Source of the DNA: an uncultured Lachnospiraceae bacterium
GTDB lineage: Bacteria; Bacillota; Clostridia; Lachnospirales; Lachnospiraceae
Length of the DNA: 64,000 bases
Direction: 5' to 3'
Assembly (NCBI GenBank): GCA_947382625.1
Contig: CANDAG010000004.1
Coordinates: 62,001-126,000, forward strand
Shown here piece after piece: positions 45,478-52,185 of the stretch. Below the pieces are notes generated by a model. It was not told the DNA's origin. It searched no databases and saw only the letters and a program-made list of their open reading frames with translations. How positions within the stretch are numbered: the first letter of the stretch is position 1; the number at the start of each line of letters is the position of its first letter. Both the position numbers and the translations under genes were made by a program.

Positions 45478-46833
45478 ATGCCTTCATTCAATGATCTTTT
45501 GGCTTCTTTTTCAGACAGCCTGACAGGGCATATGGCTCTGGTGGTTTATCTGATGGCTGTAACAGACGAACGGGCGGTGTGGAGGCGGCTGAAAAAACTG
45601 CCTCCTCTTCTTTTGTCCCCGCTTATTGCTGTGTTTCTTTCGGTCGTACTATATGCTGTTCCGGAATTAAGGATGCTGCAATATTTTATGATCTCCTTTG
45701 CCGTTCTGTTCATGTGTACCATTTGGGTGCGATGGGCGTGGCAGCTTAGCCTCTGGCAGGCCTTTGCCGCCGTCTGCATGGCAGGTATTTTTCAGGTGGC
45801 CGATGCCTCCCTGTCCTGGATGCTGTACTGGGTAGCTCCGGTGAATGGAGGCTTGTTATTTGTGGCAGCCATAGGTCTGCATTTGGGCATCAGTATCGCT
45901 GCTGTTCTTCTGCTTTACAGGCTGCGGTTCGGAATGTGGTTCTGTCTGCTTTTGGATAATGAACCTGCGCCGTGGAGGATTGCATTTTTTCTGTTTGTCC
46001 TGGAAGTAGTGATGGAAATGGTTCTCCAGCTGTTAAACGGTGTTGAGATCAAATTTCTGATGTTATACTATCTGTTGGTAGTGACCATGGTAGTCCTGAT
46101 GGCAGTGCTGGTGGTCTACCTGTCCCAGCGGTTTGACGCCGCACGAAAAATACAAGCCCAGCAGGATGTGATCGCCCAACAGAGGCTCTATGAGCAGGAC
46201 CTGGAGCTCATCCGCCGTGAGGTGCGGGCATTCCGCCACGACTACAAAAATCTGCTGGCAGGCCTGGCCTTGCAGGCAGGAGAAGGGGAACTGGAGGGAT
46301 TGCGCCATACCCTTTCCGAATTGGACGCCGGGTTTGATCTGCGGCTGGGAAAGAAAATCCATGCATCCGTCCAGATCGGAAATTTGCAGATCCCGGAGGT
46401 CAGGAGCCTTCTGTTAAGCAAGCTCACGGTTATGCGGGAGAAGGGAGTGGAGTGCCGTCTGGAGGTGCTTTATCCTGTGGCATCTGTGGATATGAATGTA
46501 TGGGATTTGGTCCGCTGCATGGGAATTCTGATCGATAATGCCGGGGAGGCTGCGCTGGAGGCAGAGAAGCCCTGGGTGGAGATCATATTGCTGGCGCAGG
46601 GCGGAGGGGTATTTCTTCGGATATCCAATTCTTTCGCGAATATCATAGAACCGGATAAAATGTGGAACGATGGCTGGTCCACCAAGGGACCGGGCCGGGG
46701 ACTGGGACTGCCCGGCTACCAGCGTATTTTGGAGGGCTATCCCAACATATCCTCTTATACCGGCTGGGATAACGGGGTGTTTGTTCAGGAACTGACGGTT
46801 GAGGGCAAAGCCCGCGGCAGGCAGGGGGAATAA
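45478..46833 (+). CDS. AgrC-like sensor histidine kinase (GHKL), 451 aa
   Basis: Membrane sensor kinase of the peptide-quorum type. The N-terminal 210 residues hold about six hydrophobic helices. A short coiled linker leads to the phosphoacceptor region VRAFRHDYKNLLAGLALQA (His about 259), and a GHKL ATP-binding domain follows with DNAGEAALEAE (N-box) and GRGLGLPGYQRI (G-box). The paired response regulator starts 2 nt downstream. No pro-peptide or AgrB-type protease gene is visible nearby, so the signal is unknown. Confidence 0.88.
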   Translation: MPSFNDLLASFSDSLTGHMALVVYLMAVTDERAVWRRLKKLPPLLLSPLIAVFLSVVLYAVPELRMLQYFMISFAVLFMCTIWVRWAWQLSLWQAFAAVCMAGIFQVADASLSWMLYWVAPVNGGLLFVAAIGLHLGISIAAVLLLYRLRFGMWFCLLLDNEPAPWRIAFFLFVLEVVMEMVLQLLNGVEIKFLMLYYLLVVTMVVLMAVLVVYLSQRFDAARKIQAQQDVIAQQRLYEQDLELIRREVRAFRHDYKNLLAGLALQAGEGELEGLRHTLSELDAGFDLRLGKKIHASVQIGNLQIPEVRSLLLSKLTVMREKGVECRLEVLYPVASVDMNVWDLVRCMGILIDNAGEAALEAEKPWVEIILLAQGGGVFLRISNSFANIIEPDKMWNDGWSTKGPGRGLGLPGYQRILEGYPNISSYTGWDNGVFVQELTVEGKARGRQGE

Positions 46834-46835
46834 GG

Positions 46836-47618
46836 ATGATCGAAATTTATCTTTGCGATGATGAGGACGCTGTCCGCCGCCAGATCCGGACTGCTCTGGA
46901 GGGGAAGATTTTTGCGGAAAATTACGATATGAAGGTGGTTTGCAGTGCCGCCGGCGCCCGGGAGCTGCTGGATGCGGCGAAAAAAAGTAAACAGGCTGTT
47001 TACTTTTTGGACGTGGAGCTGAAGGATGAGGAATGGGACGGTTTCCGGCTGGGGTGTGAGCTCCGGCGGCGGGATCCTCGGGGGACATTGGTTTATATTA
47101 CCAGCTATGGAGATCTGGCCTGGCGCACCTTTCAATATCATCTGGAGGCATTTGATTACATTGTGAAAGGATCGGGGACGATCGGACCGTCAGCGGCACA
47201 GTGTCTGGATGAGATACACGCGCGTCTGCTGGAAGAACGTCAGGCTCCCACAGAAATGTTTACCCTGCGAACGGGAGAAATGGTGCGCCATGTCCCTTTG
47301 TGCGATATACTCTTTTTTGAGACCGCCCCCGCGTCTCACCACGTTTTTATCCATACGTCCGGCAGCCGGATGGATTTTTTGGGCAGTCTCAATGAATTGG
47401 AGATCCAGCTGGGGGATCACTTTATCCGCACACATCGGGCCTATCTGGTAGCGGCGGATAAGATTGAAGCGGTAGATCTGAAGCATAATAAATTATGGGT
47501 GGGCGGTCATGAGTGCCTGCTTTCCCGCACCGGAAAAGCAAAGCTGCGCAAAAAGACGGAAGAACTGAAGAACGGGGAATCAAAAATCAGAGGATCAAAA
47601 ATCGGAGGAGGCCAGTGA
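46836..47618 (+). CDS. LytTR-family response regulator, 260 aa
   Basis: Response regulator partner of the AgrC-like kinase. Receiver domain with acidic pocket YLCDDEDAV (5-13) and phosphoacceptor Asp in YFLDVELKDEEWDG (about 69). A LytTR DNA-binding domain occupies about 140-245 (FTLRTGEMVRHVPLCDILFF, FIRTHRAYLVAADKI). The C-terminal tail NGESKIRGSKIGGGQ comes from a short tandem duplication (TCAAAAATC twice). It is directly followed by the DUF6440 gene after a 115-nt gap. Confidence 0.9.
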   Translation: MIEIYLCDDEDAVRRQIRTALEGKIFAENYDMKVVCSAAGARELLDAAKKSKQAVYFLDVELKDEEWDGFRLGCELRRRDPRGTLVYITSYGDLAWRTFQYHLEAFDYIVKGSGTIGPSAAQCLDEIHARLLEERQAPTEMFTLRTGEMVRHVPLCDILFFETAPASHHVFIHTSGSRMDFLGSLNELEIQLGDHFIRTHRAYLVAADKIEAVDLKHNKLWVGGHECLLSRTGKAKLRKKTEELKNGESKIRGSKIGGGQ

Positions 47619-47978: not shown

Positions 47979-48563
47979 TTATTGATCCACAGGAAAACTG
48001 CAGGCGTTAATGCTGACAGAAATAAAATGCGGCAGCTTCGTCTGCAATTCCATTTCGCCCTTCTCGAACAGGGTTTTTACCTGACTTCTGGTCAGGCCCG
48101 AAATTTCAGCAATTTGTTTTTCGGGGCGGATTTTCAGTTGGTAAGGATTATTGATTGCAATTATGATCTGCCCCTTGAGATCACTATATTCTGTAGTTTC
48201 ATGAAGTTTTACAAAGGCATAGTTTACTTTTTCAGGGTCAATGGCGGCTTTGTTCTTGCGAAATAGCTGTATATTTTTACCATACATTTCTGCAAGCTGT
48301 TCATCGTTGCCCAGAAAACGCTGATATTCTTCCCTGCTTATGGAAGAAACCTTTTGGCGTTCATAAATTGAAAGGTTAAGGGTATGCTTACATTCCTCGC
48401 ATTGGTAGATGAGCCAAATATCCAGTTTGCTGCCATTGGCATTGACACGGAATTTTCCGGTGTTTTTATAATAGGTCTTCCTGTTGCATTTAGGACAGTT
48501 CCGAATGATCCAAAATGAATCTTTCAGGATAATTTCATATTCAATTTTCTTTAAATAGCTCAT
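47979..48563 (-). CDS. DUF1062 protein, 194 aa
   Basis: Probable DUF1062 family member, function unknown. An N-terminal zinc ribbon is clear (CPKCNRKTYY at 25-34 and CEECKHTLNL at about 55), and a helical C-terminal half carries a helix-turn-helix-like stretch (IAEISGLTRSQVKTLFEKGE at about 158-177), so it may bind nucleic acid. I choose the ATG at 48563, 6 nt after GGAG; one at 48569 is too close. That ribosome site lies inside a predicted sequestering hairpin, and an 8-codon leader peptide ends 115 nt upstream, so expression is probably under translational attenuation. Confidence 0.8.
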   Translation of the reverse strand: MSYLKKIEYEIILKDSFWIIRNCPKCNRKTYYKNTGKFRVNANGSKLDIWLIYQCEECKHTLNLSIYERQKVSSISREEYQRFLGNDEQLAEMYGKNIQLFRKNKAAIDPEKVNYAFVKLHETTEYSDLKGQIIIAINNPYQLKIRPEKQIAEISGLTRSQVKTLFEKGEMELQTKLPHFISVSINACSFPVDQ

Positions 48564-48565
48564 TT

Positions 48566-48704
48566 GCATCTCCTGCTTATTTCGCAGTAGGATGCGCAGG
48601 CTATTACATTATTAACATAAGGACAGTTAGCAGAGCGTGCTGTCCGTTGGTTATTTATCGTATTTGCAATAGCCGCGCTATGCAAAGTAAACGGGTGTAG
48701 TCAT
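48566..48704 (-). promoter_or_regulatory. erm-like translational attenuator of the DUF1062 gene
   Basis: Order on the minus strand: leader peptide ORF (48704-48678); arm 1 TTTGCATAGC, which contains the leader stop; arm 2 GGCTATTGCAAA (48674-48663), pairing with arm 1; arm 3 AATAGCCTGCGC (48605-48594); arm 4, the ribosome site GCAGGAG. GCATC-CTGC (48595-48584) pairs with GCAG-GATGC (48576-48566) and hides the ribosome site. Arm 3 can instead pair with GCGCGGCTATT of arm 2 over 11 bp with one bulge, which would free it. This is the logic of erm/cat leaders, where a stalled ribosome covers arm 1. Confidence 0.65.
48678..48704 (-). CDS. Leader peptide MTTPVYFA
   Basis: Eight codons and TAG. AAAGGAGG lies 10 nt before the ATG, a better ribosome site than that of most genes here. 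It ends GCA TAG inside arm 1 of the attenuator, as does the leader at 49895. The probable role is as a sensor of ribosome stalling. Confidence 0.65.
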   Translation of the reverse strand: MTTPVYFA

Positions 48705-48732
48705 AAAATATAATCCTCCTTTCCCTGATATT

Positions 48733-49431
48733 TTAGGACGAGGCTATAATGATCGTTGCATTGTCAGGGTTATTCCGGACTTTTTTAATGATAAATCCGG
48801 CATCCTGCAATAATCTGCTCTCGTGCTCTAAGGTCAGCGGAATGTCAAAATGGACAAAATGGTTATCCGGTATGGGAGATTGCTTCCGCTTTTTCAGGTA
48901 TACGCTGCGCAAAAGTTCTTCTTCCTCATCACAGCAGGCAATGTAATCGCCCAAAAGAAACACGCCGCCCTTTTTCAGTCCATGATAGATTTTCCGGTAC
49001 AATTCTCTTTTGCCCTCCGGCAGAAAATGATGCAGGCTTTCAAAAGAAACGACGGCATCCCAGACGCCATAGCCAAAATCATACTGGAAATAATCCTGAC
49101 ATACGGTAGTGAGATGCTTATCGGAATGTTTTTCCAGAAGCTTGTCCAACATGCTCTGACACAGGTCTACGCCTGTTACCTTTATATCAGGATCTTTTTG
49201 CCAGATATGATCCAATTCCAAGCCGGTTCCGCATCCCAGATCCAAAATTTCCTGACATCCGGAAGGCAATGCCTGGGCAAATAGCCGGTATGATTTTTCC
49301 CAGACAGACATATGTTCTTCATAGCCATCCAGTCGTTTTGTAAAAAAGTCAGACATCTCCTCCAATGGGGAATCCGATGTCTCATGAAGCCATTGCTTTA
49401 AGTCCTGTAAATATTTTTGTTGTGAGTTCAT
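48733..49431 (-). CDS. Class I SAM-dependent methyltransferase, 232 aa
   Basis: Rossmann-fold methyltransferase. Motif I is EILDLGCGTGLELD (about residues 61-74), the acidic loop is VTGVDLCQSML, and motif IV/post-I is WDAVVSFESLHHF. The substrate is not evident; it is of the UbiE/MenG-like general type and could methylate small molecules, RNA or protein. The ATG at 49431 follows GGGAGGAAG. It lies between the CD3324-family and DUF1062 genes, all leftward; CD3324 has its own terminator, so this gene needs a promoter in the 70-nt gap, which I could not identify. Confidence 0.88.
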   Translation of the reverse strand: MNSQQKYLQDLKQWLHETSDSPLEEMSDFFTKRLDGYEEHMSVWEKSYRLFAQALPSGCQEILDLGCGTGLELDHIWQKDPDIKVTGVDLCQSMLDKLLEKHSDKHLTTVCQDYFQYDFGYGVWDAVVSFESLHHFLPEGKRELYRKIYHGLKKGGVFLLGDYIACCDEEEELLRSVYLKKRKQSPIPDNHFVHFDIPLTLEHESRLLQDAGFIIKKVRNNPDNATIIIASS

Positions 49432-49498
49432 GCTTGTCTTCCTCCCTGCGACATAGAATATCATATTTAAATGCGATATAACACCTCGCACATTTTTA

Positions 49499-49534
49499 GA
49501 AAAAAATATGAGCCGATACCAAGTATCAGCTCAT
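49499..49534 (-). terminator. Intrinsic terminator of the CD3324-family gene
   Basis: On the minus strand ATGAGCTGATAC and GTATCGGCTCAT around two Ts, followed by ATTTTTTT, starting 5 nt after the stop codon. Confidence 0.85.
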
Positions 49535-49538
49535 AGTA

Positions 49539-49808
49539 TCATCTGTTCATTTTTCTCAGGATACGTTGTATGCTCTTTTCTGAAAGGAAATATTTGCAGG
49601 CCAGTTCTGAGGTTTTGTATCCGGAAAGATAATCCCTGTAAATTTGCCGGTTGCGTGTCAGAAGCTCCTGCTTAATCTGTGTGCCTGCGCCCCATGCCTG
49701 TCGGTTTGCCGGTTTGCGCGGGATATAAATATTTTCCCCGTCAACATACTGCTGTATCAACTCAATCACTTCAATGGGCAGAATTTCTTCTGCTCTTATA
49801 TAGCCCAT
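49539..49808 (-). CDS. CD3324-family helix-turn-helix protein, 89 aa
   Basis: Small putative DNA-binding protein of the CD3324 family, related to Mor-type activators. The N-terminal AEEILPIEVIELIQQYVDGE and IYIPRK motifs are typical, and a helix-turn-helix fills the C-terminus (YKTSELACKYFLSEKSIQRIL). The ribosome site AGGAGG is 5 nt before the ATG but is fully covered by a predicted stem (49812-49844). Upstream lie an 8-codon leader peptide and a hairpin arranged as in the DUF1062 gene. Promoter at 49957-49985. Confidence 0.8.
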   Translation of the reverse strand: MGYIRAEEILPIEVIELIQQYVDGENIYIPRKPANRQAWGAGTQIKQELLTRNRQIYRDYLSGYKTSELACKYFLSEKSIQRILRKMNR

Positions 49809-49811
49809 GTC

Positions 49812-49921
49812 TGCCTCCTAAACAAATATTTTTCAGGAATGGCATCGGCTATAACAATCTAAGAAACCCTTATCTTTTATTGCAATAGCCGGTGCTATGC
49901 AGACATAACATATCGTTTCAT
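49812..49921 (-). promoter_or_regulatory. erm-like translational attenuator of the CD3324-family gene
   Basis: Minus strand: leader ORF (49921-49895); arm 1 TGCATAGC including the leader stop; arm 2 GGCTATTGCA (49890-49881); arm 3 ATAGCCGATGC (49852-49842); arm 4 AGGAGGCA (49819-49812). TGCC-TCCT (49844-49835) pairs with AGGAGGCA and hides the ribosome site. Arm 3 pairs alternatively with GCACCGGCTAT of arm 2, 10 of 11 positions. It is the same architecture as at 48566-48704 with different bases, which argues that the pairing is selected. Confidence 0.68.
49895..49921 (-). CDS. Leader peptide MKRYVMSA
   Basis: Eight codons and TAG, with AAAGGGG 9 nt before the ATG. Like the leader at 48678 it ends GCA TAG inside the first hairpin arm. 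The peptide sequence is otherwise unrelated. Confidence 0.68.
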   Translation of the reverse strand: MKRYVMSA

Positions 49922-49956
49922 ATACAAATCCCCTTTCTCTTTGAAATCTATTTTAC

Positions 49957-49985
49957 ATAATACCAGTATTCTTATCAGAAATCAA
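49957..49985 (-). promoter_or_regulatory. Promoter of the CD3324 leader transcript
   Basis: Minus strand TTGATT (49985-49980) and TATTAT (49962-49957), spacer 17 nt. The start point would be near 49950, giving a leader of about 140 nt. Confidence 0.7.
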
Positions 49986-50019: not shown

Positions 50020-50142
50020 AGCGATAAGATAAAAAACAGGAGGAAGACCTGATCAAAGAAACCGTAGATGCAGGCGGCACATGTATTCTGTTGGTGAAAC
50101 GCAGATCATGATGTGACAGTGAAAAGGGAGAGAGGATTAGAG

Positions 50143-52185
50143 ATGATGAAAAATAAAAATCTGAAAATTGAGATCAATTGCCAAAAAGGAAAAAGAATAG
50201 ATGCTGAGTTTTCCGCAGATCCCGGCATATATGAAACAGAGAGTATCCGGATTGAAATGGCAGAAACAATAACGGATGGATGCCGGCTGGGGAAAATACA
50301 GTTGAAAATGAAAAATGAGTCATGCAGGGAAAACTTTAATCTGAGGATGGAAAAGCCGATCAGGGTATATCTTCCGACTGCAGAACGTCCGGAAAAGATC
50401 ACCGCAATGTATATGTATAATGAATGGTGGACCAGACCGGCTTTTGTCACAAGCTTTCAGGAGATCCCTGACCTCACGCAGGTGGCATATTTCAAATATA
50501 ATGACCGTTTTGTCTGTTTTATACCAATGGTGGGCAGAGAGTTCAAAACTTATATGGCAGGTGGGACAGAGACAGAAATCTGTCTGGAAATGACTGCATG
50601 GCTGGGTGGCCAGAAGGAAATAGACGAGCCGTTATATTTGTTGACAGAGGCGCCTACTCTGACAGAGGCAGTGCATAAGGCCTTTGTATGGTTAGCTGAG
50701 TATAAAGGAATCCGGATGAGGGAAGAGCGGAGAATACCGGAAATGTTTAAGTTCCTGGGATGGTGTAGCTGGGACGCGTTTTATACGGAGGTTTCAGAAG
50801 AAAAAATCCGTCAGAAGGCAGATGAACTGATGGAAAAAAATGTTCCGGTAAGGTGGATGATCATTGACGACGGGTGGCTTTCGGTACAGGATGAAAAGAT
50901 TTATGATTTTGTTCCGGATAAAAAGAAATTCCCTGATGGATTCAAAAATATGATAGAGGAGATCAGGGAAAAAGGGGATATCAGATGGTTTGGTGTCTGG
51001 CATGCTCTTGGAGGATATTGGGGAGGCATTTTGCAGGGCAGTGATCTGGCCCTTAAAGAGAGCTCCTATCTTTATAAAACAGTAAATGGGAAGCTTATTC
51101 CGAGCCCTCAAAGCGGGGCAGGATTTTACAGGGACTGGTATGAAGGGTTAAGCCAGGAAGGGATTGACTTTGTGAAGGTGGATGGACAAAGCGCGGTTCC
51201 TTACTATTTTGAAAACAGTCTGCCGGTAAGTGAGGCGGCAAGAGGAATGGACCAGGCCCTGGAAAGCGGTGGGTTTTACATGGATGGAGCAATCCTGAAC
51301 TGTATGGGAATGGCAATGGAGAGTATTCTGGCAAGACCTGTTTCGGCTATCTCAAGAAATAGCGACGACTTTATGCCCAAAAAAGAAAATGGCTTTGCAG
51401 AGCATCTCCTGCAGAATGCATATAATGCAATCTACCACAATGAATTGTATTGCTGTGACTGGGATATGTTTTGGACAAAGCATGAAGATAGTGTGAAACA
51501 CAGTCTGCTGCGGGCGATCAGCGGAGGGCCGGTATACTTCAGCGATAAGATCGGAGATACCATTCCGGAAGTATTAAAGCCATTGACGTATTTAGATGGC
51601 AGGATACTTATGATGGAACGTTCGGCAAGACCTACGGAAGACTGCATTTTTTCTGATCCAATGGAAAATGGAGTATTGAAACTGCATAATGTTGCAGCAT
51701 GGGGCCAGACCGGCAGAGGCGGTGGAATTGCGGCATATAATCTGACCGGGCAGAGGCAGAAATACACGTTCAAACCTGTGGATATATCGGATATGGATGT
51801 GGCCGATACCTATTGGGTTTATGACTTTTTTGAGAAAAAGAGTTTTGTTTTAGGCCGAAATGAATGTTATGAGGGGATTTTGGATGCGGACGGGTTTGCG
51901 TGGTTCGTGATGCTCCCGAAGAACCAAACAGGAACCTGCCTGGGGCTTTTGGATAAATATGCAGGATTTATGGCTGTTGAAAGTATTCTGGAAAGTGATA
52001 ATATGCAGACTGTAGTTGTCAGGGAATCAGGGTTACTGGGATGGTTTTCTGAAAGAGAGCCTCAAAAGGTGATGGTTAATTCCGAAGATGTTACAGGGAA
52101 GGTACAAAAACAGGGTGACCTATATTCCATATCCCTTCCGGAGGCTTATTCAAAAACAGTGCTTTCTATTGTATGGTTGAGTTAA
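50143..52185 (+). CDS. GH36 family glycosidase, Sip1/raffinose-synthase type, 680 aa
   Basis: Retaining alpha-galactosidase-type enzyme related to plant Sip1 and raffinose synthase. A beta-rich N-terminal domain precedes a (beta/alpha)8 barrel with GWCSWDAFY (about residue 205), MIIDDGW (about 242), the nucleophile Asp in FVKVDGQ (about 345), and the acid/base region SRNSDDFMP (about 404-412). There is no signal peptide, so it acts in the cytoplasm on alpha-galactosides. The ATG at 50143 lies after GGGAGAGAGG. It has its own promoter and no transporter beside it. Base composition is more AT-rich than the central operons, as are neighbours from 48 to 53 kb. Confidence 0.88.
   Translation: MMKNKNLKIEINCQKGKRIDAEFSADPGIYETESIRIEMAETITDGCRLGKIQLKMKNESCRENFNLRMEKPIRVYLPTAERPEKITAMYMYNEWWTRPAFVTSFQEIPDLTQVAYFKYNDRFVCFIPMVGREFKTYMAGGTETEICLEMTAWLGGQKEIDEPLYLLTEAPTLTEAVHKAFVWLAEYKGIRMREERRIPEMFKFLGWCSWDAFYTEVSEEKIRQKADELMEKNVPVRWMIIDDGWLSVQDEKIYDFVPDKKKFPDGFKNMIEEIREKGDIRWFGVWHALGGYWGGILQGSDLALKESSYLYKTVNGKLIPSPQSGAGFYRDWYEGLSQEGIDFVKVDGQSAVPYYFENSLPVSEAARGMDQALESGGFYMDGAILNCMGMAMESILARPVSAISRNSDDFMPKKENGFAEHLLQNAYNAIYHNELYCCDWDMFWTKHEDSVKHSLLRAISGGPVYFSDKIGDTIPEVLKPLTYLDGRILMMERSARPTEDCIFSDPMENGVLKLHNVAAWGQTGRGGGIAAYNLTGQRQKYTFKPVDISDMDVADTYWVYDFFEKKSFVLGRNECYEGILDADGFAWFVMLPKNQTGTCLGLLDKYAGFMAVESILESDNMQTVVVRESGLLGWFSEREPQKVMVNSEDVTGKVQKQGDLYSISLPEAYSKTVLSIVWLS

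Follow-up and report, generated by a model that had tools for sequence, protein, structure and literature searches.

Two leader-gene units on the minus strand

The window, by which we mean the whole stretch of 64,000 nt from an uncultured gut bacterium of the Lachnospiraceae that was analysed, contains on its minus strand a gene cluster in which two genes are each preceded by a short leader ORF (Table 1). Read along that strand, the order is leader 2, a CD3324-family gene, a terminator-like hairpin, a methyltransferase gene, leader 1 and a DUF1062 gene. Both leaders end in GCA TAG. The initial annotation had described two eight-codon leaders, MTTPVYFA and MKRYVMSA, each with a ribosome site and the GCA TAG end, and all of this is present in the sequence. 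The pairing of arm 1 with arm 2 (1:2) and of arm 2 with arm 3 (2:3), as well as the hairpin over each gene's ribosome site, were also found as it had described them. For the DUF1062 gene, a start at 48563 (ATGAGC, 6 nt after AGGAG) is more likely than one at 48569.

Table 1. Features of the two leader-gene units, in window coordinates
Feature	Position	Strand	Remarks
Leader ORF 1, MTTPVYFA + TAG	48678..48704	(-)	ATG at 48704, stop TAG 48680-48678; AGGAGG before ATG; upstream of DUF1062
Copy 1 arm 1 (TTTGCATAGC), leader stop inside	48677..48686	(-)	
Copy 1 arm 2 (GCGCGGCTATTGC)	48666..48678	(-)	
Copy 1 arm 3 (GTAATAGCCTGCGC)	48594..48607	(-)	
Copy 1 ribosome-site hairpin (GCATC...GCAGGAGATGC) + spacer + start codon	48561..48595	(-)	spacer can also pair with arm 1
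Copy 1 gene codons 2-4 (AGCTATT), possible arm 3 partner	48554..48560	(-)	weakly supported
DUF1062 gene	47979..48563	(-)	PF06353 cut-off passed
Class I methyltransferase gene, between both attenuated genes	48733..49431	(-)	
Leader ORF 2, MKRYVMSA + TAG	49895..49921	(-)	ATG at 49921, TAG 49897-49895; AAAGGGG before ATG; upstream of CD3324-family gene
Copy 2 arm 1 (GTCTGCATAGC), leader stop inside	49894..49904	(-)	
Copy 2 arm 2 (GCACCGGCTATTGC)	49882..49895	(-)	
Copy 2 arm 3 (GTTATAGCCGATGC)	49842..49855	(-)	
Copy 2 ribosome-site hairpin (TTCCTGAAA...TTTAGGA) + spacer GCAGAC pairing with arm 1	49809..49839	(-)	
CD3324-family (Mor-type HTH) gene	49539..49808	(-)	PF08765 (Mor) and NF040785 cut-offs both passed
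Intrinsic-terminator-like hairpin, 3' of CD3324 gene	49507..49535	(-)	simple consensus scan

The motif GCATAGC-N(0-6)-GGCTATTGCA occurs twice in the window and was absent from 100 shuffles, and the near-identical TGCATAGC-N(0-8)-GGCTATTGCA has two occurrences in the whole 4.18-Mb assembly, which are these two leaders. The fold of both leader regions beats 200 of 200 shuffles (z -3.39 and -3.44). Arm 1 comprises the final codons of the leader; in the minimum-energy fold it is paired, alongside 2:3, with the spacer that separates the ribosome site of the gene from its start codon (1:4). A simple consensus scan of the window found no terminator-like site on the minus strand in either leader (48564-48677 and 49809-49894). 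At the Rfam gathering score no match was obtained for the leaders, and a permissive Rfam search gave one match (E 0.72), located inside the CD3324 gene on the opposite strand.

Occurrence of the leader element in other genomes

A covariance model of the element (R1) was built from 42 sequences and includes the first codons of the gene. In the window, it detects no attenuator before the methyltransferase gene. Across 397 genomes of the family, R1 gave 103 matches (summed over genomes) in 68 genomes. We examined 88 of these, the remainder being weak or from genomes already sampled, and 87 of the 88 directly precede a CD3324 or DUF1062 gene, a restriction to two families that is partly built in because the model includes the first gene codons. 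The exception is a relic-like copy in L101 (1183-1348), which lies before an unrelated ORF. Among 398 genomes of the phylum, matches were found in five, own genome included, and the other four precede CD3324 genes. An order-wide search detected CD3324 in 84 of 295 genomes, with the R1 element before the gene in 21 of the best 30 loci. At least four of these 21 (L246, L247, L252, L256) are from genomes out of which other loci had been taken before.

DUF1062 is present in 32 of 98 genomes (own genome included) and CD3324 in 44 of 98. A pattern search recovered the leader at 51 of 60 loci, i.e., 22 of 30 for DUF1062 and 29 of 30 for CD3324; the CD3324 locus L062 was also matched by R1. At four of the eight DUF1062 loci without a leader by pattern (L028, L029, L031 and L032, the others being L006, L007, L018 and L027) the element is found at a greater distance upstream, where it precedes a CD3324 gene.

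Homologues lacking the leader had been named in the initial annotation as evidence that would speak against an attenuator. In a collection of named genomes we found 276 DUF1062 relatives and kept the best 80; the leader is present at 76 of these 80 loci, and at 74 it lies within 230 nt. The loci L161 and L162 retain the leader, and their loop joining arms 2 and 3 contains an insert considerably longer than 100 nt. At L157 and L160 the leader is gone and DUF1062 directly abuts the methyltransferase gene, whereas L206 is interrupted upstream of arm 3 and L207 has no leader. The hosts of the named loci are mostly Lachnospiraceae, and also include Tissierella, Acetoanaerobium and Lutispora.

Covariation of the RNA arms

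Aligned 2:3 columns can pair in 97.5% of cells for DUF1062 (80 rows) and 83.8% for CD3324 (78 rows), above maxima of 93.6% and 71.8%, respectively, in shuffles and of 48.8% and 46.6% in slid controls. Own arms pair better than swapped arms (z -12.9 for DUF1062 and -15.0 for CD3324). Compensatory changes counted on protein trees numbered 15 for DUF1062, against 0-5 in slid controls, and 41 for CD3324, against 3-8. Allowing that none of the arm-pairing tests corrects fully for relatedness, conservation of the alternative 2:3 helix by compensatory change is strongly supported.

The remaining pairings gave smaller signals. For arm 1 and the gene spacer (1:4), the comparison of own with swapped arms yielded z -8.5 in CD3324 and z -3.2 in DUF1062, and the tree counts were modestly above slid controls (12 against 3-8, and 3 against 0-2). 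The 1:2 helix is nearly invariant in DUF1062 and hence says little there about selected pairing; in CD3324 it has moderate support (z -9.5, own against swapped). The ribosome-site region also pairs better than swapped regions (z -3.1 in DUF1062, -6.3 in CD3324), with the CD3324 hairpin not exceeding column shuffles (74.6% against a mean of 72.4% and a maximum of 75.4%). A possible contact of arm 3 with gene codons 2-4 (3:5) is weakly supported, with z -2.3 and -3.4 for own against swapped segments and tree counts of 2 against 0 in DUF1062 and 5 against 0-6 in CD3324. Judged by the refuting conditions of the initial annotation, homologues without the leader or without compensatory changes, the finding stands for the leader and for 2:3. 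Compensatory changes give weak or uneven support to 1:2, 1:4 and the ribosome-site hairpin.

In a distant copy of the element, L237, arm 2, arm 3 and codons 2-3 are altered together.

Conservation of the leader peptides

We collected 182 unique leaders, 96 of DUF1062 and 86 of CD3324, with a finder that favours an A/Q-stop end. The DUF1062 leaders mostly follow M(T/G/C)TPxx(F/I)A, and those of CD3324 fall into (K/R)RYV(M/I)xA, xxRYVIAQ, TP, LNPI, KKETV and other types. Among 89 eight-codon DUF1062 leaders, 88 have Pro at codon 4, and all four Pro codons are used (CCC, CCT, CCA and CCG). In these eight-codon leaders pN/pS is 0.42 at codons 2-4 and 0.67 at codons 5-7, calculated pairwise with relatedness ignored. 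When 34 eight-codon CD3324 leaders were selected with a protein identity cut-off of 60% or more, codons 2-4 gave pN 0.313 and pS 0.488, and codons 5-7 gave pN 0.278 and pS 0.190. A stronger pN/pS figure for RYV leaders is circular, since those leaders were chosen for containing RYV. By these measures the early part of the DUF1062 leaders is conserved as peptide, and the peptide constraint in CD3324 leaders appears modest.

Modelled opening of the ribosome site

The energy required to open the gene's ribosome site was computed with a ribosome footprint on each leader codon. For 46 eight-codon leaders, the mean opening energy was 10.2 kcal/mol for the free leader and 9.8, 8.5, 7.2, 7.3, 8.8, 9.7, 12.4 and 12.4 kcal/mol with the footprint at codons 1-8. 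Shuffling the spacers (138 cases) left a profile that declines slightly from 8.5 to 7.2; here the value at codons 3-4 minus that at codons 7-8 is +0.43 (sd 1.27), compared with about -5 in native leaders. When 177 leaders were modelled with three footprints, the class mean reached its minimum at codons 2-6, mostly 3-5, varying with the footprint and the class, and its maximum at the last codons; individual leaders are more widely dispersed than these class means. Of the 177, 165 were tabulated in the 8- and 9-codon classes, and the 12 of other lengths fall outside them.

The two window copies behave differently in the model. The CD3324 copy has opening energies of 14.4 when free, 9.7 at codon 4 and 19.1 at codon 8. 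In the DUF1062 copy (L003) the values are 13.9 when free, 11.7-12.2 at codons 1-5, 10.5 at codon 6 and 12.8 at codon 8; they change little, so the modelled switch is weak there, and the last codons do not close the ribosome site beyond the free state. Start-codon occupancy partly opens the DUF1062 site (7.8-8.6 against 10.1 free) and hardly opens CD3324 leaders (10.5-11.9 against 11.3 free, 8-codon set). Since the 2:3 helix can for the most part coexist with the core of that hairpin over the ribosome site, the switch would be a weakening, with no strict exclusion. Across the DUF1062 leaders taken together, two separate lines, the conserved Pro4 and the RNA model, point to about codon 4.

The two proteins and their gene neighbourhood

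The DUF1062 protein has four invariant cysteines and is by prediction zinc-ribbon-like, with a possibly S4-like (PF01479) C-terminal part. CD3324 did not prove to be a WhiB-family protein, PF08765 (Mor) being its sole Pfam match at E up to 0.01. A literature search of open-licence PMC articles returned no functional study of either family.

Among the best 80 of the 276 named DUF1062 loci, some of them on short contigs, CD3324 lies within 5 kb in 36 and a methyltransferase like that of the window in 15. For 116 CD3324 genes, some with overlapping loci, the next downstream ORF within 900 nt is DUF1062 in 42 cases, a window-type methyltransferase in 7 and another ORF in 44, with none called in 23. 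After eight of 43 distinct downstream neighbour ORFs were dropped (two near-duplicates, the rest short or doubtful), Pfam analysis of the other 35 identified the GNAT model Acetyltransf_1 in 10 and RNHCP in 9. In the control set of 63 upstream ORFs, Acetyltransf_1 was found in 6, and RNHCP was absent among the 25 listed of 52 families. Fisher tests gave p 0.02 for GNAT (10/35 downstream against 6/63 upstream) and p 3e-4 for RNHCP (9/35 against an assumed 1/63).

At L106, an ABC-F protein is encoded between an attenuated CD3324 and an attenuated DUF1062 gene; it scores 435.6 bits with the ribosome-protection-like model NF000355 (cut-off 380). The gene that follows CD3324 on a plasmid of Pseudalkalibacillus belongs to the EF-G-binding FusB/FusC family. 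The ABC-F ribosome-protection-like, FusB-type, RNHCP and GNAT neighbours of CD3324 fit a ribosome-stress response. Inspection by eye shows a leader-like ORF upstream of the Pseudalkalibacillus CD3324 gene; at this plasmid locus the ORF filter lists no leader and R1 has no match.

Proposed mechanism and alternative explanations

Each leader is probably a translational attenuator that is switched on by arrest during early elongation. The four-arm translational-attenuator layout is well supported by the conserved leader, the covarying 2:3 helix, the modelled opening and the lack of a terminator-like site in the window leaders. The erm/cat-type layout that was suggested at the outset holds in its conserved leader, its covarying 2:3 helix and the erm-like way in which it would work; it holds less clearly in 1:2, 1:4 and the ribosome-site hairpin, where compensatory changes are weak or mixed. 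During normal translation of the leader, the ribosome would run on to the stop codon, covering arms 1 and 2 together, and arm 3 and the following segment would close over the gene's ribosome site. With no ribosome on the leader, 2:3 would form and arm 1 would pair with the spacer before the gene start, and the site would still be closed. A ribosome held around codons 3-5 is predicted to cover arm 1 and leave arm 2 free, whereby 2:3 forms, arm 4 loses its partners and the gene becomes translatable. The hold site would be Pro4 in the DUF1062 leader and Arg3-Tyr4-Val5 in the CD3324 leader, and early elongation would be arrested there by an inhibitor or a stress as the trigger, probably in a peptide-dependent manner.

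Other readings place the signal elsewhere. The switch might sense slow or failed termination at the leader stop, caused by release-factor limitation or by a drug trapping ribosomes at stop codons. The Ala-TAG end is indeed the most conserved part of the leader, 157 of the 182 unique leaders having GCA TAG as their stop context, and erythromycin is reported to stall ribosomes at the end of msrDL, with release-factor binding prevented (PMC12121999). We nevertheless consider this distinctly unlikely, as in the model the ribosome site is on average hardest to open when the last codon occupies the P site (12.4 kcal/mol, compared with 7.2 for codon 3), the GCATAG sequence is accounted for by its pairing with arms 2 and 4, and the leader finder itself favoured the A/Q-stop context. 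Alternatively, no specific arrest is sensed and any slowing on the leader alters expression, which would make it a general translation-rate sensor for many stresses. Such a sensor would agree with the wide variation of leader peptides between copies (TP, RYV, NPI and KKETV types) while the arms stay, with the modest peptide constraint in CD3324 leaders and with the partial opening of the DUF1062 site by start-codon occupancy alone in the model. It appears unlikely in view of the near-invariant Pro4 of DUF1062 leaders (88/89), which is encoded by varied codons, and of the CD3324 leaders, which start-codon occupancy hardly opens in the model.

A conserved RNA with alternative pairings could also be a ligand-binding riboswitch or a leader bound by a protein, with the short ORF as a bystander. 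This is highly improbable: both the length and the sequence of the loop joining arms 2 and 3 are variable, up to the large inserts of L161 and L162, no conserved block is visible by eye beyond the ORF, arms, ribosome sites and gene start, Rfam gives no match at gathering score, and Pro4 is conserved.

Under the reading that we prefer, attenuation by early-elongation arrest, CD3324 would be a transcription regulator induced by stalling, and DUF1062 an effector that binds the ribosome or RNA. The neighbouring genes and the peptide conservation lend only indirect support to a response of both genes to an antibiotic. The recurrence of the switch in many related bacteria suggests an undescribed response to ribosome-blocking drugs or stress, and the search of open-licence PMC articles found no published description of these leaders. 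A more tentative reading, which we consider rather less likely than not, is a Clostridia-wide chromosomal stall-sensing switch dedicated to CD3324 (HTH) and DUF1062 (zinc-ribbon/S4-like), a Firmicute counterpart of the actinobacterial WhiB7 response. Its signal would be early arrest around codons 3-5, and different peptides within one genome (TPV and RYV types) would let regulator and effector answer different inhibitors.

If correct, these proposals would define a broadly conserved family of attenuators, so far undescribed, in Clostridia of the gut and the environment and provide a first functional handle on two uncharacterised protein families, CD3324 and DUF1062. They would imply a WhiB7-like stress regulator in Firmicutes and make DUF1062 a candidate ribosome-interacting protein. 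A direct prediction would be arrest with the P site around codons 3-5 of the eight-codon peptide.

Comparison with known attenuators

A four-arm layout is typical of erm-type attenuators. In ermC and ermB, a short leader ORF and alternative hairpins keep the gene's ribosome site hidden until a ribosome is held on the leader (PMC8274638, PMC13410324). The present leaders share the short ORF, the alternative hairpins and the hidden ribosome site. Unlike in erm, they have 8-9 codons and a productive stall is predicted around codons 3-5, the leader stop lies within arm 1, which additionally pairs with the spacer of the gene, and the genes are no rRNA methylases of the erm kind.

The uORF of Escherichia coli toiL-topAI offers another parallel, since there too leader sequence pairs with the gene's ribosome site; ribosome-stalling antibiotics relieve this pairing, and toiL is reported as a general sensor answering many stresses (PMC12121999). 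Unlike toiL-topAI, the present system has an additional 2:3 helix that covaries and a peptide that is conserved in the leaders of DUF1062, and it serves two unrelated genes in one cluster across Clostridia. In Gram-positives, the uORF attenuators of the ABC-F genes cplR and vmlR are described as freeing a hidden ribosome site upon uORF stalling, with induction by ribosome-targeting drugs; cplR adds an intrinsic terminator, and stalling on its uORF MR[I/M] is thought to occur at the start (PMC10201436). The window leaders differ from cplR in having no intrinsic terminator by the simple consensus scan and are therefore not of the cplR/vmlR mixed type.

Attenuation by alternative mRNA structure when ribosomes stall on the leader is also described for staphylococcal fusB (PMC3352095). 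The present leaders resemble fusB in this mode of attenuation, and a FusB/FusC family gene follows CD3324 in Pseudalkalibacillus; they differ in gene and leader, and R1 finds no match at that plasmid locus. Finally, the actinobacterial whiB7/wblC leader is a uORF that controls a transcription activator of the response to translation inhibitors, by transcription attenuation in wblC (PMC7157823). CD3324 is a Mor-type HTH protein and no WhiB protein; the likeness to whiB7 lies in the circuit logic, with a uORF placed before a transcription regulator, the role that CD3324 would play (PMC7157823, PMC12121999).

Sequence variation upstream of DUF1062

At loci L006 and L007, and also at L157 and L160, the methyltransferase gene immediately adjoins DUF1062 and the attenuator preceding DUF1062 is gone. 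At L161 and L162, the loop between arms 2 and 3 of the attenuator 5' of DUF1062 holds a long insert with many inverted repeats; the leader and both of these arms are undamaged. Inspection by eye also revealed a recurrent promoter-like element, GAGGT(G/A) or AAGGT(G/A), located about 65-125 nt 5' of leader 1, the reading frame that encodes MTTPVYFA in the window (L154, L156, L163, L165, L175, L227 and others). As judged in the same way, this element lies about 20 nt ahead of a -10-like box and often has a terminator immediately on its 5' side. It may be a site for CD3324 or for a special sigma factor.

Leaders and neighboring genes of CD3324

Leader-like ORFs of about 17-36 codons, with different arms, were present at more distant CD3324 genes (L233, L234, L240, L266, L267 and L272), those of L234 and L240 being identified by eye. 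When these loci were searched with R1, the covariance model of the attenuator element, they were unmatched, L233 appearing only at an E-value of 0.25. The longer ORFs and their different arms possibly constitute a second attenuator layout for the CD3324 family.

Coordinates of a distant CD3324 gene and of genes near the window cluster
Feature	Location	Strand	Remark
Distant CD3324 gene with longer leader-like ORF	L272, C1:252400-253400		Window's own genome
Sensor-kinase-like and response-regulator-like genes	Window 45478-47618	+	Adjoining the CD3324/DUF1062 cluster; from reading of translations only
Raffinose-synthase/Sip1-like glycosidase gene	Window 50113-52185	+	Divergent from leader 2 (MKRYVMSA)

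The gene next after CD3324 encodes a small RNHCP-type protein at L055, L059, L062, L108, L116, L122, L139, L146 and L258, and this protein is a candidate member of the same putative response as CD3324.
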